Shown: positions 39,596 to 59,863, counted from the stretch's first letter. The stretch: DNA of 64,000 nucleotides from an uncultured Prevotella sp. (GCA_946415245.1 CAMKRS010000001.1:1-64000), one strand, 5' to 3'. A program made the numbers and translations. Notes: a model not told the origin generated them from the letters alone.

Positions 39596-39676
39596 ATAGT
39601 AAGAAAATTAGATGTAATGGTAGAAAACCTACTTTGGACAGAGAACGAAAATATAAGCAAATATAGATATCAGTGT

Positions 39677-40903
39677 ATGAACGGATCTTATACGATCATC
39701 GATTTGTTCGCAGGAGCAGGGGGCTTGTCTGAAGGTTTCGTGCAGGCGGGTTTTGTCCCTATTGCTCACGTAGAAATGGATAAAGACGCATGCAACACAC
39801 TGAGAACTCGATGCTGTTATCATTATTTGCGAGCTAATAACCAGTTAAATATCTATAATAAATATTTGAAAGGAGAGATTACACGTGAGGCCCTTTATAC
39901 AAGCGTCCCTGCCGAGGTGACGAAAGCGGTTATTAATGTAGAGATTTCAGACACGACGATAAATGAAACATTTGACAAGATAAAGTTCCTTGCCAAAGGA
40001 CGAGATATAGACATGATCATTGGCGGCCCCCCTTGTCAGGCGTATTCTCTGTTGGGAAGACATAGAAAAACAATGGAAGATGATCCTCGAACCTTGCTAT
40101 ATCTCCAGTATGGCAAGTTTCTGAAAGAATTTACGCCAAAAGGATTCGTCTTTGAGAACGTTCCTGGATTGCTGAGTGCCAAAAAAGGAGAGCATTTCCA
40201 GAATTTGCAAACCTATTTCGACGATTTAGGATATAAAGTACATTTTAAGATGCTTAATGCATCTGATTATGGGGTGTTACAGGAAAGGCGCCGTATTATC
40301 ATTATTGGCTGGCAGAAAAATAAAGACATGGGCTTTCCGGAGATAGAGAAAGTTCCTACAAATGCGGTCATTAATGATATATTAGGAGACCTGCCACGAT
40401 TGAAGGCAGGTGAAATAGAGAAAGTGTCTTCCTACAAGAAAGCAAACAATTCATATTTGCGCGAAAGTGGAATTCGGGCAGATGGTGGGAAGTTTGTTAC
40501 ACAAAATATTACTCGTCCCGTTAATGCTAATGATGCGTCAATATATGCCTATGCAATTAAATTGTGGGATAGTAAGCAAGTGCGTGTCAAATATACAGAT
40601 CTGCCTATAGAACTTCGTACTCAAAAGAATGAAGACTCGTTTTTGGACAGGTTTAAGGTTGTGAACGGAAAAGGGAAGGCCCATACTGTTGTTGCTCATT
40701 TAGCAAAAGATGGACACTATTATATACATCCATCCTTGGATGTTTGTCGTTCTATCTCGGTAAGAGAGGCTGCTCGTATGCAGTCTTTCCCTGATAATTT
40801 CTACTTTGAAGGAAGTCGTTCTGCTATGTATAAACAGATAGGTAATGCAGTACCACCATTAATGGCTAAGTCTATTGCAAAATCTATAAGAATATTATTA
40901 TGA
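39677..40903 (+). CDS. dcm: DNA (cytosine-5-)-methyltransferase
   Basis: DLFAGAGGLSEGFVQAGF, GGPPCQAYSLLGRHR, FVFENVPGLLS, QERRRIIIIGW, QIGNAVPPLMAKSIA. Confidence 0.95.
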   Translation: MNGSYTIIDLFAGAGGLSEGFVQAGFVPIAHVEMDKDACNTLRTRCCYHYLRANNQLNIYNKYLKGEITREALYTSVPAEVTKAVINVEISDTTINETFDKIKFLAKGRDIDMIIGGPPCQAYSLLGRHRKTMEDDPRTLLYLQYGKFLKEFTPKGFVFENVPGLLSAKKGEHFQNLQTYFDDLGYKVHFKMLNASDYGVLQERRRIIIIGWQKNKDMGFPEIEKVPTNAVINDILGDLPRLKAGEIEKVSSYKKANNSYLRESGIRADGGKFVTQNITRPVNANDASIYAYAIKLWDSKQVRVKYTDLPIELRTQKNEDSFLDRFKVVNGKGKAHTVVAHLAKDGHYYIHPSLDVCRSISVREAARMQSFPDNFYFEGSRSAMYKQIGNAVPPLMAKSIAKSIRILL

Positions 40904-43059
40904 AAATAGAGAAGTACCAAATAAAAGCAACAAGTAACATTCTGAATCTGTTGGGTGATGAACTGATAGGTAGTGATATCTTGGCTATTTTTGAGTTGGT
41001 CAAGAATTCATATGATGCTGATGCAGATGAAGTGATTATATCATTTGAAGATTTGAATACTCTAAATCAAAGAATAGTGATAGAAGATGATGGTTGTGGT
41101 ATGACCTCTGAGATAATTCATAATGTATGGCTTACAATAGGTACAAATTATAAAAAGAAAGAAGCAAAAATTAGTAAAAAATACAATCGCTTCTCTTTGG
41201 GTAATAAAGGGGTCGGAAGATTGGCTGTACACAGATTAGCAGACTCTCTTTTTTTAGAAACAAAAACCGATGGTGATGATGATGGAGTAAGTTTAGAGAT
41301 TAACTGGAAGAATTTGGTTTCATCTGGTGATTTTATAGATGACCTTTTTGTGGAAGTAAAAAAGGGAATCGAAAAACCATTTAAAAAAGATCATGGTACA
41401 AGAATAACTCTTAAAGGTCTGAAGAATAAACAATGGACAAAAATGCAGCTCCGTGATTTGGTGAGAAAAATAGATAATTTTAAGAATCCTATACACCCAC
41501 TTAATAATTTTAATGTTATAATTCAATGTGATGAGGATAAAAAACATTGGATTGAAGATATAAAAACGGGTATAGACATATTATCAGATAGCTTATATTG
41601 TTTTAGGTTTTCTTTATCTCCGTCTTTGGATGACCCATCTATAGTACAGAGTCCATTTGCAAAATTCGAATGGGATTATTTATTTCGTCCTCATTCTTTC
41701 TGCAATCTATCTGATGTATCAAAAGGGAATGGCCCTGATATTTGTTTGCCAATAAATCCCAAGATTTTTGGCGATGAGAAGAATAGGGAGAAGTATCATT
41801 TACGTAATGATGATTTGAATGGCATTGGAAAGATAACAGGTCAGTTTTATGTTTTCAACCAGAGTAAAAAGTTGTTGGATAAGATATATGGGGTAGGACG
41901 ATCTGGAGCTATTAAAGAATATATTAAAGAAAATTGTGGTGTAAAAGTATATCGTGATAATATCCGAGTATATAATTATGGTGAACCTTCAGATGATTGG
42001 CTAGGGCTAGAACTTGCCAAAGTGCAAAGGATTGGTGATCATTTTAGCAAAAAAGTTACGATTGGTGCTGTATGCTTGAATTTATCTGAAAGTGAAGAAT
42101 CTCTTATTGAAAAAACAAACAGAGAAGGCTTTTTGGAAAATGATACATACTGGAGATATAGGGAAATTATTAGGGCTGTTTTTTCTTTTTTTGAACGGAC
42201 AGCAGATGCAGATAAACAGGATATTGAAGCAGCTTTAGCTGACACGACTATAAACAAACGTGTAGGATTGGCTGATACTATTAAAGATTTAGAAAAGAAA
42301 CTAGAGGAAAAAAAATTAAAAGAAGAATTTAACCCACTGATTAGGAAAGTAGAACGGGATTATAATGAGATGCGGGACGTTATGCTTAATTCTGGTATGA
42401 CAGGATTAAACCTAGCACTTATGTTTCACGAAATAGAGCGTGAAATGAAATATATAAGCTCAGATTTAGATTCACAATCTATTGATGTGATATCTTTGAA
42501 ATCACGAATAAATAATCTTAATCTATTGTTAGAGAATTTTGCACCAATTTTAAAACAAAAGACAAAAAACACGTTATTGGCTTCTGCACTAGTTAATAGG
42601 GCTGTTCAGATTAGTAAGAACAGGTTTTGCTATCATAAAATTATTTTCTCCTCTCCTCTTCTTTCAAAAGAATCACCAGATTTTAAGATAACGGGGCCTG
42701 GCAATCTGCTTTTAAGTTCGTTGTCCAACATTATTGACAATGCAATATATTGGGTTTCTGCCCAACATGAATTAGTGGGAGATAATCATAAGTCTGCTAT
42801 ATATATAGGTACTGACCTGTCTTCTTTCGATGGGCCTGCTATTATTATAGCAGATACAGGTAAGGGATTCCAATTAGATCCAGATTTGATGATACAGCCT
42901 TTTAAGACAACGAAAGAAGGTGGAATGGGCCTCGGGCTATATTTTGTTAATTTAGTAATGGAATCTATAGGAGGAAAAATAATATTCCCCGATAATAAAG
43001 AATTGGATATTCCACAAGTATATGATGGGGCTTGTATAGTTCTTGTTTTTCCTAAATAA
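40900..43059 (+). CDS. Dual-GHKL protein: N-terminal MORC/MutL-like ATPase plus C-terminal histidine-kinase-like module
   Basis: N-term: AIFELVKNSYDADADEV, IEDDGCGMT, NKGVGRLA. C-term: MFHEIEREM, NIIDNAIYW, IADTGKGF, PFKTTKEGGMGLGLYFV. Confidence 0.8.
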   Translation: MKIEKYQIKATSNILNLLGDELIGSDILAIFELVKNSYDADADEVIISFEDLNTLNQRIVIEDDGCGMTSEIIHNVWLTIGTNYKKKEAKISKKYNRFSLGNKGVGRLAVHRLADSLFLETKTDGDDDGVSLEINWKNLVSSGDFIDDLFVEVKKGIEKPFKKDHGTRITLKGLKNKQWTKMQLRDLVRKIDNFKNPIHPLNNFNVIIQCDEDKKHWIEDIKTGIDILSDSLYCFRFSLSPSLDDPSIVQSPFAKFEWDYLFRPHSFCNLSDVSKGNGPDICLPINPKIFGDEKNREKYHLRNDDLNGIGKITGQFYVFNQSKKLLDKIYGVGRSGAIKEYIKENCGVKVYRDNIRVYNYGEPSDDWLGLELAKVQRIGDHFSKKVTIGAVCLNLSESEESLIEKTNREGFLENDTYWRYREIIRAVFSFFERTADADKQDIEAALADTTINKRVGLADTIKDLEKKLEEKKLKEEFNPLIRKVERDYNEMRDVMLNSGMTGLNLALMFHEIEREMKYISSDLDSQSIDVISLKSRINNLNLLLENFAPILKQKTKNTLLASALVNRAVQISKNRFCYHKIIFSSPLLSKESPDFKITGPGNLLLSSLSNIIDNAIYWVSAQHELVGDNHKSAIYIGTDLSSFDGPAIIIADTGKGFQLDPDLMIQPFKTTKEGGMGLGLYFVNLVMESIGGKIIFPDNKELDIPQVYDGACIVLVFPK

Positions 43060-43062
43060 AAA

Positions 43063-44331
43063 ATGAATATGTTTACAGAATCAAATAGAATAATTGTTGT
43101 AGATAACTCACAAGATGATTTGAATAAAATCGCGCATGAATTTAATCTTAAAGGTATAGGGTGTAGGACCATATTATATGATGGAGTATCCTTTCCAGAT
43201 GAACCTTTTAAGGATGTGCGACTGGCTTTCTTTGATGTCAATCTCGGGCAGGCTTTTTCTGACAATGATAAATATGCCATTTTGGAAAATGCAATAGAAT
43301 CATATATTTCTGTTGATAATGGTCCTTTTGTCCTGATTTTCTGGACAAATAATATTTTGTGGAAAGATGGCTTTGTAAATTATGTGAATAGAGATTCAGA
43401 AAACGAAAACATTGTAAGAGATAAAATTAAACCATATTACATATCCGTAATCGATAAGACCTCTATTTCGGAAAGGAATCCATTGGAGAAAATGCTTAGG
43501 GAACAATTGGGAAATCAGTTGGTGGAATTATGTATGATTTTTGATGACCAACTAAAAGTGACATCAGAAAAAACCTTTTCCACATTGCTTTCGATGGTTC
43601 CTATTGGGGACGAATGGGGACGGCCAAATTTGTTCGAAACTGAGTTAAAAAAAGTATTTTCAATGATTGCGATATCATCATGGGGAATACAAAATGCAAA
43701 AGAAAATCCAGATGGTGCAATAAATGATGCAATTCTTCCTGTGGTAGCCCATTCTTTACCTCAATACAGAATTTGGAGAAATTTTTTGAATGCATATATT
43801 GCATCATTAAATGGATGTAAGGATATTCAACTTATTGACGAATCAATTCCTTTGAGATTGAATAATTTTTTTCTAATAGATGAGAATGCTATAAATACAA
43901 AATCTAGGGGCGTTGTTGTTAAATTGAAATCAGACCATTTCGAACAGTATTTTGGCGTTGATTTCCAAACTTGGAAAAAAAGTGAATTTGGAGAAAGCTC
44001 CAATATACAGGATGCATTTCCAATAGCAGTAGAAATAAGTGCTGCATGTGATTTTTGTCAACAAAAGAAGAGAACTTATAAATATCTTATGGGAATAGCA
44101 TGCGACAAGAAAATTAACAATAGCCAAAAGAAGGAGAATATTTTAATCATAAAACCTGTAATTTATGATAAGAATCCTATATTTGTTGCATTTGATTTTA
44201 ATTATATTTTTGTGGATTATATTCCTTCTATAATAGAAACTATTTTGTTCGGTTATAAAAAGGAAATGGTAGATATGATTGGAAATCAATATGCCAATCA
44301 TATTTCGCGTATAGGTATAACTTCATTTTAA
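43063..44331 (+). CDS. Receiver (REC)-like protein with uncharacterised C-terminal region
   Basis: RIIVVDNSQDDLNKI (b1 acidic), LAFFDVNLGQ (b3 Asp), FVLIFWTNN (b4 Thr); C-terminal IAVEISAACDFCQQKKRTYKYLMGIAC. Confidence 0.65.
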   Translation: MNMFTESNRIIVVDNSQDDLNKIAHEFNLKGIGCRTILYDGVSFPDEPFKDVRLAFFDVNLGQAFSDNDKYAILENAIESYISVDNGPFVLIFWTNNILWKDGFVNYVNRDSENENIVRDKIKPYYISVIDKTSISERNPLEKMLREQLGNQLVELCMIFDDQLKVTSEKTFSTLLSMVPIGDEWGRPNLFETELKKVFSMIAISSWGIQNAKENPDGAINDAILPVVAHSLPQYRIWRNFLNAYIASLNGCKDIQLIDESIPLRLNNFFLIDENAINTKSRGVVVKLKSDHFEQYFGVDFQTWKKSEFGESSNIQDAFPIAVEISAACDFCQQKKRTYKYLMGIACDKKINNSQKKENILIIKPVIYDKNPIFVAFDFNYIFVDYIPSIIETILFGYKKEMVDMIGNQYANHISRIGITSF

Positions 44332-45081: not shown

Positions 45082-45571
45082 ATGGAATATAATCTTAAAG
45101 AACTCGTTGCTTCAATGTGGGAGCATAGAAAGAATAAAGATTTTGAGCGTAAGAGCTTGATGACTTCATATCGTGGCTTATCTGTCAAAGCAAGTATCGG
45201 TATGACTGGCGCTATCTCAAGGACACCATGGATTTCTGCTTTATTTGTTAATCTCGGCTAGTAATCAGTATAATGTTGGTATTATGTCCGATTTGAAGAA
45301 TGGGCTTTTGTGTAAGTTTAGTTGTAGTTATCAGGGAATTAGAGAGAATGTGGATCTGCGACAAATCCGTTATTTAATACCAGTACATAATCAACGTTTT
45401 TCAGGTTACTATGAGGTAAAATCTGTTAATACTAAAGCGGGAGAGTCGCTTCGGATAGAGTTTGAACTATGCAATTATCATGAGATAGATTCTGTAGTAG
45501 AGGTTGCTATTCATGATGGTTATGGAGTTCCATTAAATTATTCAGAGTTCAGAAGCCTTTGCTATGGATAA
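45082..45571 (+). pseudogene. Probable frameshifted gene between the receiver-like gene and vsr
   Basis: MEYNLKELVASMWEHRKNKDFERKSLMTSYRGLSVKASIGMTGAISRTPWISAL... stops at 45261 while another frame (45245-45571) continues LLISASNQYNVGIMSDLKNG... Confidence 0.45.
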
Positions 45572-46157
45572 ATTATCTCCCAAACAACGACACAAGAATA
45601 TGGCTGCAATCCGTTCAAAGAATACAAAACCTGAGATGATTGTGCGCCGAGGGTTGTGGAAGAGAGGGTTTCGTTATAGGCTGAACCATAAACGATTACC
45701 AGGGCATCCTGACCTGGTGTTGCGAAAATATAGAACGTGCATATTCATAAATGGATGCTTTTGGCATGGCCACAACGTGGCGCTGCCACTGATGGGAGAT
45801 GCCGGACGTAAGATGGAGGATGTGATTGTGAACTCTGAGTGTTGTAAGATTCCCAAGACAAACCGAGATTTTTGGGTAACCAAGATTCGCAGGAACAAGG
45901 AACGAGATAGGGAAGAACAGCGAAGACTTGCAGAGATGGGTTGGCACTGCATCACAGTATGGGAATGTGAATTGAAGCCGCAAAAACGTGAAGAAACGTT
46001 GGATTCCATTGCTTTTACCCTAAATTATATCTGGTTGCAAGATCATGGAGCAAAGAAAATTCCCTATCCCCATTTAGAAGAAGAGGAAAGACAGATGCCA
46101 TTGGTTGCAGAGGGAGAACAAGAAAAAAGGGATAATAACATTTCTCCAAAGAAATAA
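45564..46157 (+). CDS. vsr: Very short patch repair endonuclease
   Basis: MAAIRSKNTKPEMIVRRGLWKRGFRYRLNHKRLPGHPDLVLRKYRTCIFINGCFWHGH. Confidence 0.95.
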   Translation: MDKLSPKQRHKNMAAIRSKNTKPEMIVRRGLWKRGFRYRLNHKRLPGHPDLVLRKYRTCIFINGCFWHGHNVALPLMGDAGRKMEDVIVNSECCKIPKTNRDFWVTKIRRNKERDREEQRRLAEMGWHCITVWECELKPQKREETLDSIAFTLNYIWLQDHGAKKIPYPHLEEEERQMPLVAEGEQEKRDNNISPKK

Positions 46158-46211: not shown

Positions 46212-46442
46212 TCATTTCCACCCTGCTGCATTTTTCTCATCGATTAAAGCTATTTGATGCTGACAATGCCTTATCTGAATTTTGAATAGTTCAATACTCT
46301 TTTTCTCTTCGTCGATGATAGCCTCTAATGCTTTTTTCATCTCCTCGCCATCAGCAGAGTTCATTCGCTGTTCTAAAAAGAAATCTAAATAGTTTTTCAT
46401 AACCACAATCGTTACTGATTTATCCACATCTTTATTTCTCAT
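46212..46442 (-). CDS. Small helical protein coupled to the STAND gene
   Basis: 76 aa; overlaps the 3' end of the upstream gene by 11 nt. Confidence 0.55.
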   Translation of the reverse strand: MRNKDVDKSVTIVVMKNYLDFFLEQRMNSADGEEMKKALEAIIDEEKKSIELFKIQIRHCQHQIALIDEKNAAGWK

Positions 46443-49400
46443 GCCCCGTCCTCAAGCTCCCAACGACTCTCCCATTCTCATCCAATGTATATGTCCCGCT
46501 CACCACCAGCCACATAGGCAGCACCGGCATATGCTGATAATTATGCAGTCCAATGATATTTTTCTCACCCAGCACATACCACATGATTCTCTTGTGGTGC
46601 TTGGCAAGATAATTCATCAGTGCATCCTTCCGCACTAACAAATAAGTCCTTGATTCTTCTATTGCTCCCTCATCAAAACAGACCACATTACCCTTTTCAT
46701 CTACAAACACGCCTTCCTTATCACCATGTTGCATCCCCATACCGTCAAATAATTGCTTCGAGGGCACCAGACAATAAAAAGCCTCTTCTTTGGAATGATC
46801 TTCTCCAGCCTCCCACAAATAGCCGATACTTGTTACTTCTGCATGGCCAATGAGACGATTCGTATTCCTGTCATATATTTCCTTCTTGGTCAGCCCCTCT
46901 GCATCAAAATATTGATAGGCTGGCGACCAATAATACTCCCGATAGAACATTTCGTACCTGTCACTACATTCCGGCATCCATCTCCCACCAAAATTCTGTT
47001 TCATTGCCCATTTGTAGACACGAGGGAATTCTTCTTCGTCAATAATACAACTTCTTACTTGATACCACAGCTTTTTGTAGATATCATCTTCGTTATGGGG
47101 CTCTATCCACTCTGGATAACATTCCAAGGCAAGCCAGTCGCCACCTTCAGGATCCTTCAATGCTATAATCGGCTCAGCAGGTGGTATGTCATCATCAATG
47201 TTCAGCCAATCAGCCAATTCTGCCTCCCAGTTATCATACATTCCTCCATACCACCAGTAATTATCGCGAGGTTTTGACCATTGCCGGTTTCCTTCCCTTC
47301 GAACAAGCGTTGTCGGGTCAATATCACGAATAACAGGATCCCATGGCCCCTCATATTCAACGTCACGGTCACTCCATGCATGTTCTAATTTGGGGAAATT
47401 GTCTGCCACCCGAGCCAACAATTCGTGCAGTGCCAGCCACTGATATTTCTTTCCGATCCGCTCATTGGGTACGGTCGAACGTCCTCTTCCCACACCGACG
47501 TTCTGGTCAAATTCGCCATGCTTTTCTTCTCGATACCCGTACTTGTCAATAATAAGTTTGATGGCTATATGGCTCAAACATTCTGCGTCTATTTTCCAAT
47601 TGCTCAATGCACTTTGGAATGTATATCTGCCAAAATCACCATAAGAATAGCCGACTGTCGTATGCTCTGTGAACATAGATGTCAGCACGCTACACAATCC
47701 AGGTGAATCTTTATACCCCCTACATCCTTCATATAGGGCTTTAATTTCCTCGTCAGGTACGAGCTCATAGTCAAATGAACTATGATAAGGAGGCCGTATC
47801 TTATCCACATCGATATCCAGTCTTACACCTATTGAAATAGCATATTCTATTACTTCCCGTGCATAATCTCGAAGCAACACATGAGGATAGATTTCATCTT
47901 TTACATCAAATATCTTCGAATAAATGTATTGGCACAAGCCTGCCAGATGCTCTTTAGATTTCGATCTCACGGCACATCCTAAAGCCACGGCGTAAAGTCT
48001 TTCATGTATATACGGATCATCCACTGTCGAGAACTTCTCCAGTAGTGGCACCAACACCTGCATCCTATTGTGAAGAAGTTGAACAAGGGCTTTTGTTGCT
48101 GTATCACGGAGTTGCCTGTTTGTACTTGCCAAAAACCAAGATAGCAAGGTTGCGCCCAGTTCTACCGACTTTTCATCTATATCAACCTCATCACTTTCAT
48201 TCCATGCCCAGTTTATGACATCTTCTATGATTTTATAGTTAAAACCGCCATAAATACGGGATAATGTAGGTACCCACATGGCATCCCTGTCAGCTAACGG
48301 CATCGGAGTGAGCATTTTGTGCAGATAGTCTGCATTATAATAGTTCCCCGCATAATAGCCAATCTCCATGATGGTCCGAACAAGGACATCTCTGAATTGA
48401 TCGTCATCCATAAACTCAACAAAGTAGGTATCCAGATGTGAGTCTATAGTATTTTCATCTCTCCATATTAAACTGGATAGAACCGCACGCACTACGGCTT
48501 TACTCCGACGGAAAGTGGGCAATGCGTCATACAATTCCACACCTTTACTTTCAGGCAACATAATGGCAAGTGATTCTAACAAGCCCCCAATTCTATAAGG
48601 ATCCTTTACCGTCTGAACATATTCCTCCAAGGCCTTAAAATCAAATTTCAATTCGTATAGAAGATACCCAGCCTGAAGCATATTTTCGAATCGTTCGTAT
48701 GTGAGGTATATACATTCCCCATACTTGCCTTCATCTCTATAAAAAACATTTTTACTGAAAACGCCTTCTGATATTAGGCAATCCAACAACTCTCCTTCAA
48801 CGAAAACTCGTGGGCAAATATCCGATAAAAGATCAGCAGCACTGTCAATAGGCATTTCATGCCGTCCTTCTTTAGCCGTATATGCTATAAACCTTCGCAC
48901 TGCTTTCTCTACGATTTTAATCGACGACGGATATAACTTATTTTTTCTGAGTGATTTCTCTACACCATCAAAAAACATGTCCATGACCGATGTAATACCC
49001 TTTATCCCATCGGGAATCTTCCTGTAGCCGTTGTTCTTCATGCCTTCACAGAACAAACGCAGGAACAATGGATTTCTGAATTCAGGATTAAGGAATGGTA
49101 TTGTCGGATACAACAGGTCGTATTCCTTAAAGAACAACCGTACAGCCTTTTGTGTGTTAATGCCGAATCCATGGTGCCATGCTCTCACACAGTAGTCATG
49201 GTCGAATTCTTCCCATGGAAGTATGGCTGGTTGGTATGAAGTACGAATACTCAAAACAAGTCCAAGCCACGGATGCCGTCTGATTTGATCAATGAAACTG
49301 CGGATATTATTTGGCCAGATAGCTATCCCATGTCCTTCATTGATGGCATCTATGAAAATGATAATACGGTGTCCTGTTGTCTCTGCCTTAGCTTCGAGCA

Positions 49401-50568
49401 TTTCTAACAACTCGTCTGAAGTTCCAGTAAAGTGAAGCATTTTCATCATCTGGGTAAGAGGATCCTCATCGGTGGTGAATTTCTGCCCCAGAAAAAGTAG
49501 GCTTATCTGCTTTTCTTTCTCCCGTCGCAGTACGACATCGGCCATCAGATGAGACTTTCCTACGCCAGCATCTCCTTCCAGAATCAAGACGGGGTCATTT
49601 ATCAGCCTCATAACATCCTGATGCAAATTGTTGTAAACATGCAGAACATCAACACCTAACCCATATATTCTACTATACTTTCTGTAGGATTCGTCAGTAC
49701 TAATATCATTATCAACAACTTTATTGGCAATGTCTTGAACCGCTTCACCCAGCGTCATCAGTGCAGTCAAAAACTCATCCATTGCGATTCTGTCTATGCC
49801 TGCAACAGGAGTTCCCTTTATTTGCCTGATGGCATTCCTGACACTTTCAACCTTTTCAAGGGCATCATGGCAATGCTTGCTCCTTTCTATTTTTCCGCAG
49901 GCAACCTCTGCTAATCTCAGTTCATCTTCTAAGAAATATTCCAGTGATTTCCCTCGCGAAAGCACCTCGAAGTATTCCGCAGCCTCAACTTCAATATTCA
50001 GCTTAGGCAGATACCGCTTGCCCAAGTCTTTGATGGAGTCAGCATTAAAATGTATCAAGTTTTCATCGGTAAATTCATGCCCTCCAAACCAGAATCGAAG
50101 CATACCTTGATTTTGAGGTTTCTGAATTCTTTCTATTAAGTCCGATGCCCACCAAAATTCAAATACGACTTGAGGATTGAGTTCTGTCCATCTTTCCGCA
50201 TATCCATCAATCCGCTCTTTCATGCTCATCCTACCCTCAACATGAGCATCTGACGGATCCGTTGGAACAGCAATGATATATCTCTTTAAATGGGGATGAG
50301 TCTTCAGCGCTTCTTTCACAGAACCATCTATTTGTTGATACTGTGAATTATCAAAAGCCTTACAGAAGTATTTTGCCTGCCATGCTACTTCACTGCCATC
50401 TTCAAGAATCCAATAGCACTCTACACCTCCATCGGGTTTCCCATTCCGCACGAATCTTATTTTGCACGGAATTTCCTCTTTGCGTGCCAGTTGGCAAACA
50501 AATTCCTCAAATCCATCCCTTGCAGACCCATTGACGGGTCTAATACCATTGAAGTCAAGATTTCTCAT
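46432..50568 (-). CDS. Avs-like STAND NTPase with N-terminal PD-(D/E)XK nuclease
   Basis: N-term GKPDGGVECYWILEDGSEVAWQAKYF (D...QxK); LEGDAGVGKSHLMADV (Walker A); RIIIFIDAINEGHG (Walker B); about 900-aa helical repeat-like C-terminus. Confidence 0.75.
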   Translation of the reverse strand: MRNLDFNGIRPVNGSARDGFEEFVCQLARKEEIPCKIRFVRNGKPDGGVECYWILEDGSEVAWQAKYFCKAFDNSQYQQIDGSVKEALKTHPHLKRYIIAVPTDPSDAHVEGRMSMKERIDGYAERWTELNPQVVFEFWWASDLIERIQKPQNQGMLRFWFGGHEFTDENLIHFNADSIKDLGKRYLPKLNIEVEAAEYFEVLSRGKSLEYFLEDELRLAEVACGKIERSKHCHDALEKVESVRNAIRQIKGTPVAGIDRIAMDEFLTALMTLGEAVQDIANKVVDNDISTDESYRKYSRIYGLGVDVLHVYNNLHQDVMRLINDPVLILEGDAGVGKSHLMADVVLRREKEKQISLLFLGQKFTTDEDPLTQMMKMLHFTGTSDELLEMLEAKAETTGHRIIIFIDAINEGHGIAIWPNNIRSFIDQIRRHPWLGLVLSIRTSYQPAILPWEEFDHDYCVRAWHHGFGINTQKAVRLFFKEYDLLYPTIPFLNPEFRNPLFLRLFCEGMKNNGYRKIPDGIKGITSVMDMFFDGVEKSLRKNKLYPSSIKIVEKAVRRFIAYTAKEGRHEMPIDSAADLLSDICPRVFVEGELLDCLISEGVFSKNVFYRDEGKYGECIYLTYERFENMLQAGYLLYELKFDFKALEEYVQTVKDPYRIGGLLESLAIMLPESKGVELYDALPTFRRSKAVVRAVLSSLIWRDENTIDSHLDTYFVEFMDDDQFRDVLVRTIMEIGYYAGNYYNADYLHKMLTPMPLADRDAMWVPTLSRIYGGFNYKIIEDVINWAWNESDEVDIDEKSVELGATLLSWFLASTNRQLRDTATKALVQLLHNRMQVLVPLLEKFSTVDDPYIHERLYAVALGCAVRSKSKEHLAGLCQYIYSKIFDVKDEIYPHVLLRDYAREVIEYAISIGVRLDIDVDKIRPPYHSSFDYELVPDEEIKALYEGCRGYKDSPGLCSVLTSMFTEHTTVGYSYGDFGRYTFQSALSNWKIDAECLSHIAIKLIIDKYGYREEKHGEFDQNVGVGRGRSTVPNERIGKKYQWLALHELLARVADNFPKLEHAWSDRDVEYEGPWDPVIRDIDPTTLVRREGNRQWSKPRDNYWWYGGMYDNWEAELADWLNIDDDIPPAEPIIALKDPEGGDWLALECYPEWIEPHNEDDIYKKLWYQVRSCIIDEEEFPRVYKWAMKQNFGGRWMPECSDRYEMFYREYYWSPAYQYFDAEGLTKKEIYDRNTNRLIGHAEVTSIGYLWEAGEDHSKEEAFYCLVPSKQLFDGMGMQHGDKEGVFVDEKGNVVCFDEGAIEESRTYLLVRKDALMNYLAKHHKRIMWYVLGEKNIIGLHNYQHMPVLPMWLVVSGTYTLDENGRVVGSLRTGHEK

Positions 50569-51177: not shown

Positions 51178-51270
51178 ATTACTCTGATTTTCAGTCGTTT
51201 TATGACTTCAACTATAGCCTCTAATTTCTACGAATCCAATATTTATAGTGCGAATGATGCTTCTATGCTG

Positions 51271-51302
51271 CAAATATACAAAAAATACAATTTATTTCCA
51301 AA
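51271..51302 (-). promoter_or_regulatory. Bacteroidetes promoter for the NusG-like/STAND operon
   Basis: Minus strand TTTG-N20-TATATTTG: CAAATATA at 51271-51278, CAAA at 51299-51302. Confidence 0.75.
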
Positions 51303-51427: not shown

Positions 51428-52273
51428 CTATAATTTCGTCACAGAATTAGCTAATCGTTTCTCGTCATCAATCTCAGTGGTGTAATAACGTTGATTAAGG
51501 ACATTGAGTAGGTCAGTAAGGTTACTCTCGTCATTAACATTGAATTTCTTGGTTCCTTCGTCGTAGATATGTGGACAATATTTGCTGATGTATGATGGAA
51601 TTTTGGCCTTTTGCTCTGGACTAAAGCTTTGGTATCTCTCGGTCGCCTCCTTTATTCTTCGACGATTGGCTGTTTTGACATCATCTTTACTGAACCCATC
51701 AGCAACATTTATCATATCCATTTCGAGGAATTCTTCAACTTCTTGATTTGTTGCCTCACGATAGAGAATGTTTATTCCATCAAAAATAGATGTGATCGCA
51801 TTGAGGTTCTTAAAATATAGCTTATCTGCATTCCTTTTGTAGTAGCAATCTGCATCTGTTTTAATAACTAGCACATCTTCATAATTGTATAAAACCGCCT
51901 GATCTGTGGGAGCGATTATATGGTTCCAGGAAAGCAATTTCTGTTTTTCGTATATATAACTTGGTGTTATTTTCTGAAATATGAAATCATTTCCTTCGTT
52001 TTGAACAGACACGATGAAATCAATTTTCCCGTATTTTTCTTTTGGCATGAACGAATAGTTTGTAGCAACGAAATCATTTTGGATGAAGTCTATGCTATAG
52101 GTTTGTTGTGAAAAGTGTTCTACGACAAACCATTCGTCTTCCTGCAGTTTATACTCATCGTCATATTCTCTCGAATTGGCAAAATCTGGAATAGTCTCAA
52201 ATGTTGTCTGGTCGGAAAGCACTTTATAGAAAGAGCCTCTTTTCCCTTTTGTTTTTGCTACTAAATAATCCAT
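51428..52273 (-). CDS. kwaB: KwaB-like protein (DUF4868), Kiwa anti-phage system
   Basis: C-terminus YCPHIYDEGTKKFNVNDESNLTDLLNVLNQRYYTTEIDDEKRLANSVTKL resembles DUF4868; TAATG coupling to a membrane gene. Confidence 0.6.
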   Translation of the reverse strand: MDYLVAKTKGKRGSFYKVLSDQTTFETIPDFANSREYDDEYKLQEDEWFVVEHFSQQTYSIDFIQNDFVATNYSFMPKEKYGKIDFIVSVQNEGNDFIFQKITPSYIYEKQKLLSWNHIIAPTDQAVLYNYEDVLVIKTDADCYYKRNADKLYFKNLNAITSIFDGINILYREATNQEVEEFLEMDMINVADGFSKDDVKTANRRRIKEATERYQSFSPEQKAKIPSYISKYCPHIYDEGTKKFNVNDESNLTDLLNVLNQRYYTTEIDDEKRLANSVTKL

Positions 52274-52866
52274 TATTCTTCTGATTTATTTGATGGTACT
52301 TCTATATCAATATATGTAAAATCATTTACTTGCCCAAGTATTTTAAACTCAATATGTTCTCCTAATTTTATGTCCTTTTTCGTCATCACAAGGATTTTGT
52401 TCTTATCCGCAGTCACGAAATAGAAGCGATATCCAAGTAAATGAAAAATTGGATTGTAAAGATAGATTTCTGCACAATAGCATAATACAGTCAAAGCGAT
52501 ATATGTAACCACCAATGTCATATCATTATTAATACTGAGTCCGACAAAAACATAACCAAAGAAGGTCGGTAGAAAGATTGCACTGGCAGATTCAACCATG
52601 ACAATATTCTTCTCCTTAATATTTGCATGATCCAGTTTGGGGAATCTTCTATGATTTTGATAAGTCAACAGGATGGGTATGACAATATATATCATGTATG
52701 AAACCACGTTGGGCAGATCGATTGAAATGCAAGTGACACCACACTTATTCAATAAGTGTCCGATTGTAATGTTATTGTTTATAAAATAGATACTTGCCAA
52801 TAACAAAAATGCTTTCCCTACAAATATGAGTCGATATAATTTCATACAATAGTCTGTTAGATTCAT
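52273..52866 (-). CDS. kwaA: KwaA-like membrane protein, Kiwa anti-phage system
   Basis: 197 aa, four hydrophobic segments then YNPIFHLLGYRFYFVTADKNKILVMTKKDIK; immediately upstream of the kwaB-like gene. Confidence 0.6.
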   Translation of the reverse strand: MNLTDYCMKLYRLIFVGKAFLLLASIYFINNNITIGHLLNKCGVTCISIDLPNVVSYMIYIVIPILLTYQNHRRFPKLDHANIKEKNIVMVESASAIFLPTFFGYVFVGLSINNDMTLVVTYIALTVLCYCAEIYLYNPIFHLLGYRFYFVTADKNKILVMTKKDIKLGEHIEFKILGQVNDFTYIDIEVPSNKSEE

Positions 52867-53788: not shown

Positions 53789-56700
53789 TTATTTTAAAAA
53801 TAGATTTGACCAATCCATAAAACGCTCAACTTGAATTGCACGATCTTGTTCTTCAGAAGTCCATGGTTTTGCTACATTTCTAAAACCAATGGATAGTCCA
53901 GGAATATTTTCTTTGATTGTATCAATTTCATCTTTAGACACACCCGCTTTTAATAGAATTGTGGATGTACTTGTATTGCAGTTTCCTTGAGTATCGCCAA
54001 AAGGAAGAACTGAATACAATATTTTATCATTATTTCCGAAAGACTCTGCTACATCAATAACTTTTTGATCAAATACTTCATCAGTCATATCTTTAGGTGT
54101 ATTGATAGGAATGACTTTTTTTAAATTATTCTCATCAAATCCCTTATAGATGTTAATATCTTGATTATATGTCACTCGTTTGAGTGAACCAGAAATGGCG
54201 CCATCTTTATTTGGACCATATGCATAATACCCTCGAACGCGATTGTTAGCATCTCTAACGACAAGAAAAGTATGTGTGGGAAAGGTAATATAATTATTTA
54301 GTTTAGAATCTGGTAATGTTGTTGAATATAAATATGTTTTCTTTCCGTCATGATCAATATGAATCACAGGATTATTCTCGCAGTAGACATATGGACCAAC
54401 ATGGTAGTATTTCTCTGCCATTGGGTCTATTTGCGTGAACATAGGAACGACGGGATCATATTGTCGGAAGCCATAGTCATAGAGGTCGAGGCCGTGCATT
54501 CGATCTAGTTCCTTTCCGTTATATTTGTATGGTTGGAGGCTACTGCCAGACCCTTGATCTGCGAAGAAACCGCCGAAAGGATAATAATGGGTTACCTGTT
54601 CCACAGTTCCGCTCTGATTTACTACGGCGCGATTGTTGCCGAGATGATCCTGTGTGTAGTAGTGGAACACTGGTTGGGTTGATGGAGTCACCGTGGCATA
54701 GCCACCCTCAAAGAGATATTTACTCAATGAGACGGGGGAAAAATAGTTCGAAGCGGTGCCTGTATAGATAACATTTCCAATATAGTCAGTACGTGTTGTG
54801 CTACTGATTTGATTGTTGTTAAGATTTTGAGTAGTGTTCAATGGCACGACAATGTTGCCCACAGCCGTTTGCCACGTAGTACGCAGCTTCTTCCCATCAG
54901 GCGAATAAACGTACCGAATGCGATTACCGTTGGTGAACTGTACTTCCTTCGGAAAGTTCAGGTTGTCGTAAGTGATATGCGCTATCTGCTTGTTGGCGTC
55001 CCATATAAGTGAACCATTACCGTCATAGCCATATTGTACACTTGACGTGCTATGTGACTGAAATTCCATTGCGCCATAGACGGTTTGGTTACCTGCATCT
55101 TCAACAATGCTCTCAAGGCGATTTCCATCAAGTCTGATATGCAGGTTGTCTACCTTGCCATACACACCATCACTTTTCAGTCCACGGCGTTGGAAACGCT
55201 TGATCATACTGTTAGCTGAGTACTCAATCACCTTTTCGTTGTATCGGTTATCATGTTCTGAGAAGTTGGCAGATCCATAGACAGCCTCTGAAAGACGATT
55301 TAAGCCGTCGTAGGAAAATTTGTAGCCTCGATTGTAACTATCGGCATACCCTTGCCATTTCTGAATACTAACATTACCATTATAGTATTTTTTTCCAGAA
55401 CATCCTGCACCTGTAAAGTCTGCATAATAGAGCCATTCGTGGAATCCTGTACCCTCAATTTCCGTCAGCCAATTACGCAGGTTGTATGAATAATTAATTG
55501 CCAAATTGCCGTTGCGGGTATTATTCGTAATACGGCCCAATCCATCGTAAGTGTTCTGTCGTATCGTTTTCTGAACGGCTGTGGCTGAGCCACGCTTTAG
55601 TGATAGTGTGGTATTGCTGAGCAGTCCCGTCGTAGAATTATAGTTGTTAGTTGTGGTCGATGTTAGAGTTGGTGTGGTAGCTGTACTTGTGCCAGGATAA
55701 TCTGTTTGTACTGTCTGATAAATGTCACCCCAGTATTTATAGGATGTCGTTGTGGTTGTCAAACGGCTACCCAATGAGATGGAACGTGTCTGTATAGGTC
55801 TTCCCTTGTAGTCATAATAAATTGCATCTGTCAGCATACTTCCGTCACTAGCTATGCTAATACGGCCCGTCTGCAGACCTGTTGTTGTAGTTGAATTTGT
55901 TGTATTCATCACCGAATTATAAAGACGAATGAAATCGTAGTTATCGTAATAATTCACGATTTCAAGTGTAATCGTCCCACTAATATCTGAGTTTCTGGCA
56001 AGCAAATAACCTGTGTTTTGGAATCCTGTTCCTGAAGTGTTATAGGTTGTTGTGTTCACCGTCTCCCCGCGCCAGCAGCTTGTACATGTACCTTGGATGC
56101 ATAGCCGTCCATACTTGTCATAAAGCATGAAACGATAGAGTCCCTTTGACCTTAAGTTAGCATCCTGCATGAATTTCATACGTCCTGCCGTATCGTACCA
56201 ATATTGCGTGTATTCACACTGTGGTAACATCTTCTTCACCAGCCTTCCCTTCTCATCGTATCGGTATTCATATCCATAAACGTCTTTATAACCAGCCTCT
56301 TGATATTGCGGTGACAACACGAAACGGAGTTGGTCTAGATCATCATATATATAATAGGTGTCGTTGTTTGTGCCCTGACGTTCCAGTATCTTTCGACCCA
56401 TTTTGTCTGTGAAAACAGTCATGGTCTTGTTATCTTCGTCTGTTGTCTTCTCGCCAAAAAGCATCGTGGTTGTGTAGTAGCCATTCTTGATGAGCGAATT
56501 CCCAGTCAGTGAAGCAGAATAGCGCTTGACGTTGTTGGTTGCATTAGTAATGTATTCTTTAGTAATGCCCTTTGATGCACTATGCCAAGTGTCCCCTGGT
56601 GTTTGTATAAATATAGCCCGATCAAGGGCATCATAAGTCGTTAACGAATATGCATTTAGGTCGGGGTAGGGGTTTCCTGTCAGTCCCTGAATAGACGATA

Positions 56701-59700
56701 GGTAGTTTGGTGATGAGCCGCCTACAGCCGGCAGCCACTCCTGCGATACACGGCCTTTCAAGTCATAGGTCTGCATGGCGTAGACATAATTGCCCGTTAT
56801 ATTTTTAGCGGTTTCCACAGGCCGTCCCAGCCCGTCATAATACTGGCGGGTAATCTTACCTGTTGTACTGCTAAGCATATCCATAGTCTGCACATAGTTT
56901 GTGCCGTCATTACTTCCGCTGAAAGGATATGCGTATTGATATGCAAATTGCTGCAGTGGCCCGCTATTGTCACGAATGGCTGACAGTTTGCCATCAGTAC
57001 CATAATCATAGTAAGTGGTATATCCATTTTCTGCCGTGATGGCCGACACGCCGTAGAGCGGTTTATAGTTGTATGTTGTGACAAGACCATTGGCACCTAT
57101 GCTGTTGCGAAGCGTTGTCAGATAATTGGTCATTCTGCTGGGCACACTGTCATTGGCTATACTATTCAGCGTGGTTGTTAGTCCTAATCCTAATAAATCC
57201 GTATAACTTAGCCCCGAAACCTTTGCTACGGGCCAACTGGACTTGAATCCCCAGACCAATGCGGTCTTGTCTGTGCCGTTCTCTATGACTGTACGAGGAT
57301 TGCCGTGGGTGTCGTAGTCACTCAACTGTAGCTTCTCAAAAAGAGAACCATTAAGCCGCAGTTCAAGCTGTTTGTAGGGATAATGCCAATTGTTTAGAGT
57401 CAGGAATAGCGTGGAATCCATTTTAAGGAATGTGTTTCCTGCATATAGCCGGGTTGCAACGATAATATCAGCCATGTTTCTTATATTGTACATACTATCG
57501 CAGACGTTGCTTGAACACTCGAAAGGAAATTCGTTTACAGTCCTATATGATGTCCCGTCACTATTGATCTTCGTAATAGTCTTCGGTTGCAGAGTTCTGA
57601 ATAGTGGGTCATAGGTATAATTCTCAGTGGTAGAAAAAACAACTTGGGGCTGATAACTAGGAAGTTGTTTATAGTCTGTTATGGTTTTTGCTTCTAGCAA
57701 GAACTTTTTGACATGGCCTCTCATTTGCCTAATAGGAATAGGTACTGCTCTATAATCAAGCATTGAAGCAGGTATAGGTTCACCATCAATTGTACTACCA
57801 GACAAAATGTTAAGTGCCTTAACACCTATTTCAAACGAGTCAATTCTATTTACCCCATATTGATATATTTCTGTTCGAAGTAAGTTAGATGATCCGTTAT
57901 ATATCTTCTTGGAGGTCAGAAGAGGATCACATGTACCCTCATCAAAAAGAGAGGCCGGACTCAACTGGGGCCATGGATCATTGTTATAATCAAAATGGGT
58001 AGGGAGGATTCCTCCGTTTATATAATCATAAACCGTCACATTGCCTAGCCCGTCTGTTTCTTGAACGTGATCATAAAACACTGTTGATCCACTTCCGTCA
58101 CAAAGTGGTATCAGGGGTTCTGACGAACAGGTAGCTTTCCTATTATAATAATTAAAATATGGGTATATACTACCAGAAACGTGATATGTGTCGTAAACTA
58201 ATGCATCCTTTGGAGAATTTTGTGTTGCATGGCCAGTATAAGTGAATTGTCTTATCCGTGAAGTCGTGCCTATTGGCCCGCTGTCTTCAATAGAACTTAT
58301 CCTTAGCCCTCCAGCGTCTCCGTTAAGATTTAGTTCATAAATCAAATGGGTATGTCCTCCGGATGGATAGGTTATTGTTTCCAAAATACCTGTTTTGGCA
58401 AAGCTCAGATTAGGTTTCTTATTTGCATAATCAATATCATTCGTAGCAGTATAATTTGTTTCTGGGAATTGTAGATATGCAGCATGTGCAGCCTCTCTGG
58501 AAACGTTATAAAGATAAGTAGAATCAGTGTTGTAATATCCCCAATAGTCTTTGTGGCCTGATATATCATAATCAGGGAAATTCTTTAATCTATTATAGGT
58601 GAAGGTATATGTACCTTCATCTGATACAGAAATGGACTGTAGCATCATTCGTTTGTTTTTAGCTGTCGTCCCTAGATATGAATTATTGTCTAAAATAACA
58701 GTTTTGAGTGTATCCCTATCACACCCTCTAATTACAATGCTGGTCAGTCTTCTATTTGGTAAATCTTCCCTATCGTTGCTATATGAAAAATCTATGGTAT
58801 TGCCATTCCATGTTATTTTTTTAAGAATAGAGATGCCATAATGGTAATATGATGGCCCACTACAGTGAATCCCTTTACAGATGGAATCTTCAGAGTGAAG
58901 ATCATAATCATAATAATGATGTTTACCTACAGATAAACTCTCCGACCACACCTTGGTTTCATAACTTGGAGCAGTTTCATATGTGAATGTAATATTGCCA
59001 TAAGGAGTACTGATATTTGTCAGATACCATGATGTAGGGCACATATAGTCTGATCCTGGCATGATGGTTTTCTCCTTGTTCCTGAAAGAATAGACGATGC
59101 CGTCGGAGTCATATATTTCAAAATAACCAGTCTCTAATCCTCGGTCTAGGTATAAAATATCAATAGGGTGATGATTGAGCGTAACAAACTTCTTGTCTCG
59201 GTGGCTATATCGAAAAACTCCTGCTTTGCTTCCAAAATTATAGCTATAACGGTCAGAGGCAGTATCATAAGTTGAATTTAGCCCGTCGGTCAAAGCCGGA
59301 ATGAAAACGTTAGTGTATGCTTCAGGGTAATTAGTAGTGCTATAGATATTATGGAATCGGTCGTAGGAACGATAGAGTGTATCTTCTGTCTCACTTCTGT
59401 TTTCTCTTAAATCCGGAGCTCCGCAGATAGTTCTGCTCACAACTCCTCCTGCATTCAGCACCCAGCCGAGCCCAACAGTCGAAGCAACATCATCGACCTT
59501 AATGCCTGAGGCATGATAGGAGATGCTGATGGGTAGGGTATATTCGCCTAATTTGATTTCGTAGAGTGGAATACTGATTTCCGGAACTCCCGTGGCCAGA
59601 CTAACAGGATACTCGCCATAACGAGCCAAAGCTGCTGCTTGTGGTGATGGAGGCAAGAACTTTTCCAGAGCTGAATACGTGTCAGTTTGGTCCCTGTTGA

Positions 59701-59863
59701 TGATATTGTCCTGCCTGACAGTGTCATTGAGTGCGGTTACGTCCTTATCCTGTGCCGACATCTTCGGCACAAAACCAGCATGGGATAGAATCAGCACCAG
59801 ACTTGCCATTCTTAATATAAATTGTTTGCGGGGCAAAGATATAAAAAAATTATCAGTTTTCAT
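53789..59863 (-). CDS. RHS-repeat polymorphic toxin
   Basis: N-term PPSPQAAALARYGEYPVSLATGVPEISIPLYEIKLGEYTLPISISYHASGIKVDDVAS; YD repeats; RHS core HYYPFGGFFADQ...GLDLYDYGFRQYDP; variable C-terminus. Confidence 0.93.
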   Translation of the reverse strand: MKTDNFFISLPRKQFILRMASLVLILSHAGFVPKMSAQDKDVTALNDTVRQDNIINRDQTDTYSALEKFLPPSPQAAALARYGEYPVSLATGVPEISIPLYEIKLGEYTLPISISYHASGIKVDDVASTVGLGWVLNAGGVVSRTICGAPDLRENRSETEDTLYRSYDRFHNIYSTTNYPEAYTNVFIPALTDGLNSTYDTASDRYSYNFGSKAGVFRYSHRDKKFVTLNHHPIDILYLDRGLETGYFEIYDSDGIVYSFRNKEKTIMPGSDYMCPTSWYLTNISTPYGNITFTYETAPSYETKVWSESLSVGKHHYYDYDLHSEDSICKGIHCSGPSYYHYGISILKKITWNGNTIDFSYSNDREDLPNRRLTSIVIRGCDRDTLKTVILDNNSYLGTTAKNKRMMLQSISVSDEGTYTFTYNRLKNFPDYDISGHKDYWGYYNTDSTYLYNVSREAAHAAYLQFPETNYTATNDIDYANKKPNLSFAKTGILETITYPSGGHTHLIYELNLNGDAGGLRISSIEDSGPIGTTSRIRQFTYTGHATQNSPKDALVYDTYHVSGSIYPYFNYYNRKATCSSEPLIPLCDGSGSTVFYDHVQETDGLGNVTVYDYINGGILPTHFDYNNDPWPQLSPASLFDEGTCDPLLTSKKIYNGSSNLLRTEIYQYGVNRIDSFEIGVKALNILSGSTIDGEPIPASMLDYRAVPIPIRQMRGHVKKFLLEAKTITDYKQLPSYQPQVVFSTTENYTYDPLFRTLQPKTITKINSDGTSYRTVNEFPFECSSNVCDSMYNIRNMADIIVATRLYAGNTFLKMDSTLFLTLNNWHYPYKQLELRLNGSLFEKLQLSDYDTHGNPRTVIENGTDKTALVWGFKSSWPVAKVSGLSYTDLLGLGLTTTLNSIANDSVPSRMTNYLTTLRNSIGANGLVTTYNYKPLYGVSAITAENGYTTYYDYGTDGKLSAIRDNSGPLQQFAYQYAYPFSGSNDGTNYVQTMDMLSSTTGKITRQYYDGLGRPVETAKNITGNYVYAMQTYDLKGRVSQEWLPAVGGSSPNYLSSIQGLTGNPYPDLNAYSLTTYDALDRAIFIQTPGDTWHSASKGITKEYITNATNNVKRYSASLTGNSLIKNGYYTTTMLFGEKTTDEDNKTMTVFTDKMGRKILERQGTNNDTYYIYDDLDQLRFVLSPQYQEAGYKDVYGYEYRYDEKGRLVKKMLPQCEYTQYWYDTAGRMKFMQDANLRSKGLYRFMLYDKYGRLCIQGTCTSCWRGETVNTTTYNTSGTGFQNTGYLLARNSDISGTITLEIVNYYDNYDFIRLYNSVMNTTNSTTTTGLQTGRISIASDGSMLTDAIYYDYKGRPIQTRSISLGSRLTTTTTSYKYWGDIYQTVQTDYPGTSTATTPTLTSTTTNNYNSTTGLLSNTTLSLKRGSATAVQKTIRQNTYDGLGRITNNTRNGNLAINYSYNLRNWLTEIEGTGFHEWLYYADFTGAGCSGKKYYNGNVSIQKWQGYADSYNRGYKFSYDGLNRLSEAVYGSANFSEHDNRYNEKVIEYSANSMIKRFQRRGLKSDGVYGKVDNLHIRLDGNRLESIVEDAGNQTVYGAMEFQSHSTSSVQYGYDGNGSLIWDANKQIAHITYDNLNFPKEVQFTNGNRIRYVYSPDGKKLRTTWQTAVGNIVVPLNTTQNLNNNQISSTTRTDYIGNVIYTGTASNYFSPVSLSKYLFEGGYATVTPSTQPVFHYYTQDHLGNNRAVVNQSGTVEQVTHYYPFGGFFADQGSGSSLQPYKYNGKELDRMHGLDLYDYGFRQYDPVVPMFTQIDPMAEKYYHVGPYVYCENNPVIHIDHDGKKTYLYSTTLPDSKLNNYITFPTHTFLVVRDANNRVRGYYAYGPNKDGAISGSLKRVTYNQDINIYKGFDENNLKKVIPINTPKDMTDEVFDQKVIDVAESFGNNDKILYSVLPFGDTQGNCNTSTSTILLKAGVSKDEIDTIKENIPGLSIGFRNVAKPWTSEEQDRAIQVERFMDWSNLFLK

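Follow-up and report, generated by a model that had tools for sequence, protein, structure and literature searches.

Within a 64,000-nucleotide stretch of an uncultured Prevotella genome, the window analysed here, one long leftwards frame encodes a STAND protein of the kind that senses phage infection. It lies directly behind a gene for an UpxY-family transcription antiterminator. The questions that this locus raises are what kind of sensor the protein is, what it would do when triggered, and whether the antiterminator gene has anything to do with it. The features discussed are collected in Table 1.

Table 1. Features of the upxY-avs2 unit; positions are counted from the first letter of the window.
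Feature	Position	Strand	Basis
avs2: PD-(D/E)XK nuclease, STAND NTPase, long C-terminal sensor; 1378 aa	46432..50568	-	profiles, 9o4e, alignment, tree, ends of DNA homology
C-terminal sensor region, about residues 600-1378 (approximate boundary)	46435..48771	-	covered by Avs2 models and, as far as residue 1340, by 9o4e
Walker B IIIFIDAINEG, residues 402-412	49333..49365	-	D407, N410 and E411 invariant in 11 sequences
Walker A GDAGVGKSH, residues 332-340	49549..49575	-	P-loop residues invariant in 11 sequences
Effector domain, PD-(D/E)XK nuclease, residues 1-165	50074..50568	-	AF2 (pLDDT 69.8), Foldseek, conservation
Putative catalytic motif D46...E50...Q64-A-K66	50371..50433	-	invariant in 7 homologues; motif in 14/24 Avs2-related proteins
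upxY, UpxY-family transcription antiterminator, 197 aa	50584..51177	-	NF033644, NusG domain, tree; ends 16 bp before avs2, same strand
Conserved 35-nt leader element GTTGAAGTCATAAAACGACTGAAAATCAGAGTAAT, directly before the upxY ATG	51178..51212	-	clade conservation, genome pattern search
Bacteroidetes-type -7 box TATATTTG, putative promoter of upxY-avs2	51271..51278	-	TAnnTTTG in 12/12 leaders

The Avs2 sensor and its trigger

The avs2 frame starts with ATG and has no internal stops, and its product is an intact, ordinary anti-phage sensor of the Avs2 family, a known type of protein. The matches are well outside what chance would give: the best model is the PADLOC Avs2 profile (1318 bits, E=0); the full-length PADLOC model PDLC02162 gives 1188 bits, and the NCBIfam Avs2 model NF041813 gives 1155.9 bits against a curated cut-off of 1000. 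A solved Avs2 (PDB chain 9o4e) aligns to residues 167-1340 with E=7.9e-232. The Avs4 models of PADLOC and NCBIfam reach just 11-16 bits. In a tree of the NTPase and sensor, the product falls among proteins of Prevotella and B. fragilis, a group that lies near that of E. coli and Vibrio Avs2. The source genome is about 52% complete and holds one Avs2 above the cut-off.

The original prediction of an Avs-like STAND protein is borne out by these matches, all of which are to Avs2; profiles, 9o4e and tree place NTPase and sensor together inside Avs2, not outside the Avs clade. The P-loop and Walker B sequences that it had picked out are both present, with G332, G335, G337 and K338 of the former and D407, N410 and E411 of the latter invariant in an alignment of 11 sequences that reaches Gammaproteobacteria and archaea. 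Its long C-terminus is likewise matched by the Avs2 models and 9o4e up to residue 1340. Family membership, domain order and intact motifs are thus established. The prediction stopped short of assigning the type, Avs2, and overlooked the UpxY gene directly upstream.

It also named no trigger, correctly, as the trigger is not readable from the sequence. EcAvs2 reportedly responds to the terminase large subunit, and the E. coli group, to which the closest characterised relatives belong, is in the same region of the tree; both argue for the same trigger here. Against this, the Prevotella sensors form a long branch of their own (0.89). The nuclease effectors of Avs1-4 are set off by terminase, by portal or by Ksap1 (PMC12931631). 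Ksap1 provides a precedent for an alternative trigger, and Avs2 serves in the Avs5 paper as an example of a sensor with multiple triggers (PMC12931631). We therefore regard it as a real possibility, if not the leading one, that the trigger is some phage protein other than the terminase large subunit, perhaps one specific to Prevotella phages.

Neighbourhoods of avs2 and the UpxY clade

The relatives of avs2 occur in varied, defence-type neighbourhoods, and these differ among the six nearest (72-91% identity) and a seventh at 63%. DNA similarity to all seven begins within a few bases of the start codon, and in six of them it reaches the stop codon or ends within about 35 nt of it. Since the homology is bounded by the start and stop codons, avs2 moves as a single-gene cassette, shifting between different neighbourhoods. 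Within the family, just 13 of the 399 genomes have a match; rumen Prevotella relatives are present in both the family and the genus of the source genome. Relatives covering at least 80% of the product also occur on plasmids of other phyla, and a search of phages and viral contigs found no full-length relative.

Several other genes lie around avs2 in the window. Just upstream of the upxY promoter and on the same strand, KwaB-like (55 bits) and KwaA-like (37 bits) genes at 51428-52866(-) form a Kiwa-type pair, divergent in sequence. A Vsr endonuclease gene at 45564-46157(+) is convergent with avs2; in B. fragilis S82, a Vsr gene with 59% identity is directly downstream of avs2, and two methyltransferase genes are upstream of it. 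At 40900-44331(+), adjoined by a cytosine methyltransferase (39617-40903), are two genes: one for a GHKL/histidine-kinase-like ATPase and, after it, one for a 422-aa partner whose start is receiver-like. The same pair appears in one of the UpxY-headed islands described below (L124; 48% and 33% identity), and the ATPase appears distantly in another (L121), making this a recurrent, as yet unnamed two-gene candidate. Lastly, 53789-59863(-), which adjoins the defence genes, encodes a 2024-aa protein whose repeats look YD/Rhs-like by eye; a small gene comes after it.

The upxY product scores 135.3 bits against NF033644 (cut-off 100) and 33 bits for the NusG domain (cut-off 22.2), while the KOW domain, at 16.9 bits, is under the Pfam cut-off of 22.3. 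UpxY proteins are activators of Bacteroides capsule operons (PMC7819879, PMC7593976); they keep transcription from terminating in the 5' leader ahead of the gene that encodes them, and capsule operons are their usual context (PMC7819879). Like the Bacteroides capsule-locus genes, the gene described here belongs to this family and opens its transcription unit, preceded by a short leader. It differs in its cargo, which is defence and not capsule, in having no adjacent UpxZ and in its distinct leader element. It does not head a capsule operon; the single gene downstream is avs2, and then a convergent gene follows. No UpxY was found on viral contigs.

The upxY gene could be an accidental neighbour, left over from a capsule locus or a rearrangement, with avs2 expressed from its own promoter and UpxY irrelevant to it. 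The usual capsule context of UpxY would favour this, as would its absence beside Avs2 in all 14 other Avs2-related loci checked. That absence rules out a conserved Avs2-UpxY pairing, and the Avs2 system itself therefore does not include UpxY. Moreover, with one gene only between upxY and the convergent gene, there is less need for long-range antitermination. On the other side, capsule genes were not seen adjoining upxY, the gap between upxY and avs2 is just 16 bp, and both a promoter and a conserved leader precede upxY. A further argument against an accident comes from the relatives of upxY itself.

We searched for UpxY relatives in the family, the order and the genus and then read the genes downstream of them. 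Fourteen relatives with 69-87% identity form with upxY a supported Prevotella clade of 15 (98/98). Only one of these, L118, heads a capsule operon. At 10 other clade loci the downstream genes match PADLOC families at more than 100 bits: Hachiman HamB (720), Lamassu LmuB (383), a type II methyltransferase (340), an Avs4 sensor (295), PDC-M29A (232), AbiLi (216), PDC-S01 (198), DRT RTasDUF1848 (185), an Avs2-like protein (181) and Thoeris ThsB (130). L059 has KAP, RnlA/RnlB, PLD and LmuA genes behind its UpxY gene. The PADLOC scan gave no match in L120 and a weak match alone in L125, and these two were labelled as defence in the tree by their neighbourhood, which is a judgement. So labelled, the cargo changes twice on the UpxY tree, against a mean of 12.3 changes for shuffled labels. 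In five clade loci that were followed further, a same-strand run of 12-18 genes extends over 18-23 kb, after which the strands alternate; in a sixth (G880) the run is just 5 genes and 8.6 kb. As a control, random genes were scanned with PADLOC: 4 of 10 loci of the defence clade had matches, whereas among 10 UpxY loci from elsewhere only one did, to a ClpV AAA ATPase. This enrichment is in the expected direction but comes from too few loci to count alone. Because of that small sample, most of the weight is carried by the per-locus scans, for which the genes were chosen by eye. The less ordinary feature of this locus is thus that avs2 stands behind an UpxY gene whose close Prevotella relatives mostly head long defence islands.

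In one clade locus (L121:2610-4310) the UpxY gene is followed by a gene for a 567-aa protein matching just about residues 948-1240 of the Avs4 model, possibly a sensor-only or split Avs4. Outside the clade, farther UpxY genes of Prevotella (50-57% identity; L060 and L128-L132) head type VI secretion operons, with ClpV, TssB, TssC and Hcp-like genes, and most of the others head capsule loci. Several leaders of the type VI and capsule UpxY genes contain GTG(T/A)CCC, often after an inverted repeat; this is possibly a general UpxY leader signal.

The leader element

The 35-nt element is present in all 13 clade members with upstream sequence (12 clade-mates and the upxY described here) and is absent upstream of UpxY genes outside the clade. 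Its mean pairwise identity is 87%. Third codon positions in these genes, taken where the residues are identical, average 65%, and in every one of the 78 pairs the element is above them. The 80 nt upstream of it have an ungapped identity of 35%. When 14 genomes were searched with the pattern, 12 had one or two sites, and the reversed pattern, used as a control, gave none; in the two genomes without a site, the upxY copy begins at the end of a contig. Where there are two sites, they are accounted for by two upxY genes (G997) or by a second, broken upxY (G1040). All 12 clade leaders of sufficient length have the promoter motif TAnnTTTG 63-101 nt before the ATG.

The leader folds worse than its own shuffles (z 2.26), which rules out a stable structure, and the element is therefore a sequence motif or signal and not a strong hairpin. 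It is plausibly the recruitment site of the clade's UpxY. L118, with its capsule cargo, also has the element, which fits a tie to UpxY and not to the cargo. The clade-specific element, the gene order and the clade's association with defence arrays are established by these observations. Two other ideas about the leader could be discarded: the element is not an N-terminal coding extension, as 12 of the 13 copies have an in-frame stop, either within the element or where it starts, and no copy has a start codon; and an invertible promoter finds no support, as no inverted repeat closely flanks it. An RNA family search from 44 to 54 kb had no hits, and neither the leader nor the gap separating upxY from avs2 showed an intrinsic terminator.

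Most clade-mates heading defence-type arrays, and cargo following the UpxY tree, make an accidental neighbour rather unlikely. We consider it quite likely that the Avs2-type sensor with its nuclease output is the cargo of an upxY-headed transcription unit. The broader proposition, that this Prevotella clade of UpxY proteins, recruited via the 35-nt element, switches whole defence islands as single long units, seems to us as yet evenly balanced.

Predicted nuclease output and proposed action

Residues 1-165 have no sequence match to 9o4e or any other solved chain. An AlphaFold2 model built with seven close homologues is of moderate confidence (pLDDT 69.8, pTM 0.70), and its Foldseek matches include EndoMS (1.1e-4), Avs4 (8dgf; 3.9e-4) and Cap4 (7.5e-4), with NucS and EcoO109I also among the best PDB matches. 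The top two ranks are chains of a viral RNA polymerase, and TM-scores are modest at 0.37-0.50. Residues 46-68 read DGGVECYWILEDGSEVAWQAKYF, in which D46, E50, Q64 and K66 are invariant among the seven homologues from Prevotella and B. fragilis; the motif D...E...WQ(A/V)K occurs in 14 of 24 Avs2-related proteins. The model and the conserved residues show a PD-(D/E)XK-type nuclease fold for the N-terminal ~165 aa, with cleavage activity predicted. The PD-(D/E)XK-like start foreseen in the original prediction holds up in this respect, a nuclease fold being matched in EndoMS, Avs4 and Cap4. That the domain is nuclease-like yet inactive, or directed at RNA, giving the protein a different output, is improbable: the modest TM-scores, the viral RNA polymerase subunits on top and the high variability of Avs2 effectors lean that way, but the four residues are kept across Bacteroidota, Rhodothermota, Pseudomonadota and Haloarchaea, which argues for catalysis, and the remaining top matches are the nucleases EndoMS, Avs4, Cap4 and EcoO109I.

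The same four residues recur in plasmid-borne relatives. An Avs2-annotated protein of Rhodothermus pRMAR01 and ATP-binding proteins of Moraxella, Burkholderia, Acetobacter and Haloplanus share the domain order and the nuclease motif at 27-32% overall identity, with UpxY neither seen nor expected there. Avs4 has a similar modular arrangement of nuclease, STAND and sensor, and its nuclease fold matches, in contrast to its profile scores. E. coli and Vibrio Avs2, and likewise 9o4e, have the STAND NTPase and C-terminal sensor in common with the avs2 product, but the N-terminus of the E. coli and Vibrio proteins (MEPISI/MEPITL...) is unrelated; because the E. coli-type proteins are without the PD-(D/E)XK nuclease, results on them are not directly transferable. 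On the NTPase-sensor tree, nuclease and other effectors interleave, with five changes, and some Bacteroidota relatives have a protease-like N-terminus. The effector is thus swappable within the Avs2 family. In four Bacteroidota loci (L080, L082, L085 and L086), Avs2-related STAND proteins have N-termini that look trypsin-like by eye, and their genes adjoin putative metallo-hydrolase genes in an organisation resembling Avs1.

The short transcription unit would be ordered as promoter, 35-nt leader element, upxY and avs2. UpxY, as the first product, would most likely be loaded at its own leader onto RNA polymerase, letting the polymerase continue through the long gene or array downstream; antitermination is proposed here from the biology of other UpxY proteins. 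By analogy with other Avs systems (PMC12931631), the C-terminal region of Avs2 would bind a phage protein made during infection, and the NTPase would then drive oligomerisation. This would activate the N-terminal nuclease, which would degrade DNA in the cell, and the infected cell would die or stop growing, thereby blocking the spread of phage.

In the open-licence literature we found no description of UpxY heading defence islands with a leader element of its own, although one may exist elsewhere, and no paper combining defense island, NusG and antitermination. The NusG literature cited above (PMC7819879, PMC7593976) does not mention 'defense', and the literature found on UpxY and phages is about capsules and phase variation.

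The avs2 gene adds an Avs2 with a nuclease effector from rumen Prevotella, and the close relatives of its sensor (72-91% identity) suit a search for the trigger. Little is known about how the genes of a defence island are controlled together, and the UpxY context would matter more than the protein. If the proposal is true, a dedicated antiterminator and a short specific leader would make a simple on-switch for defence genes spanning some 20 kb, and would account for the expression of unrelated cassettes of this kind from one promoter. Defence genes would then be under a capsule-type switch, silent at low cost until needed.
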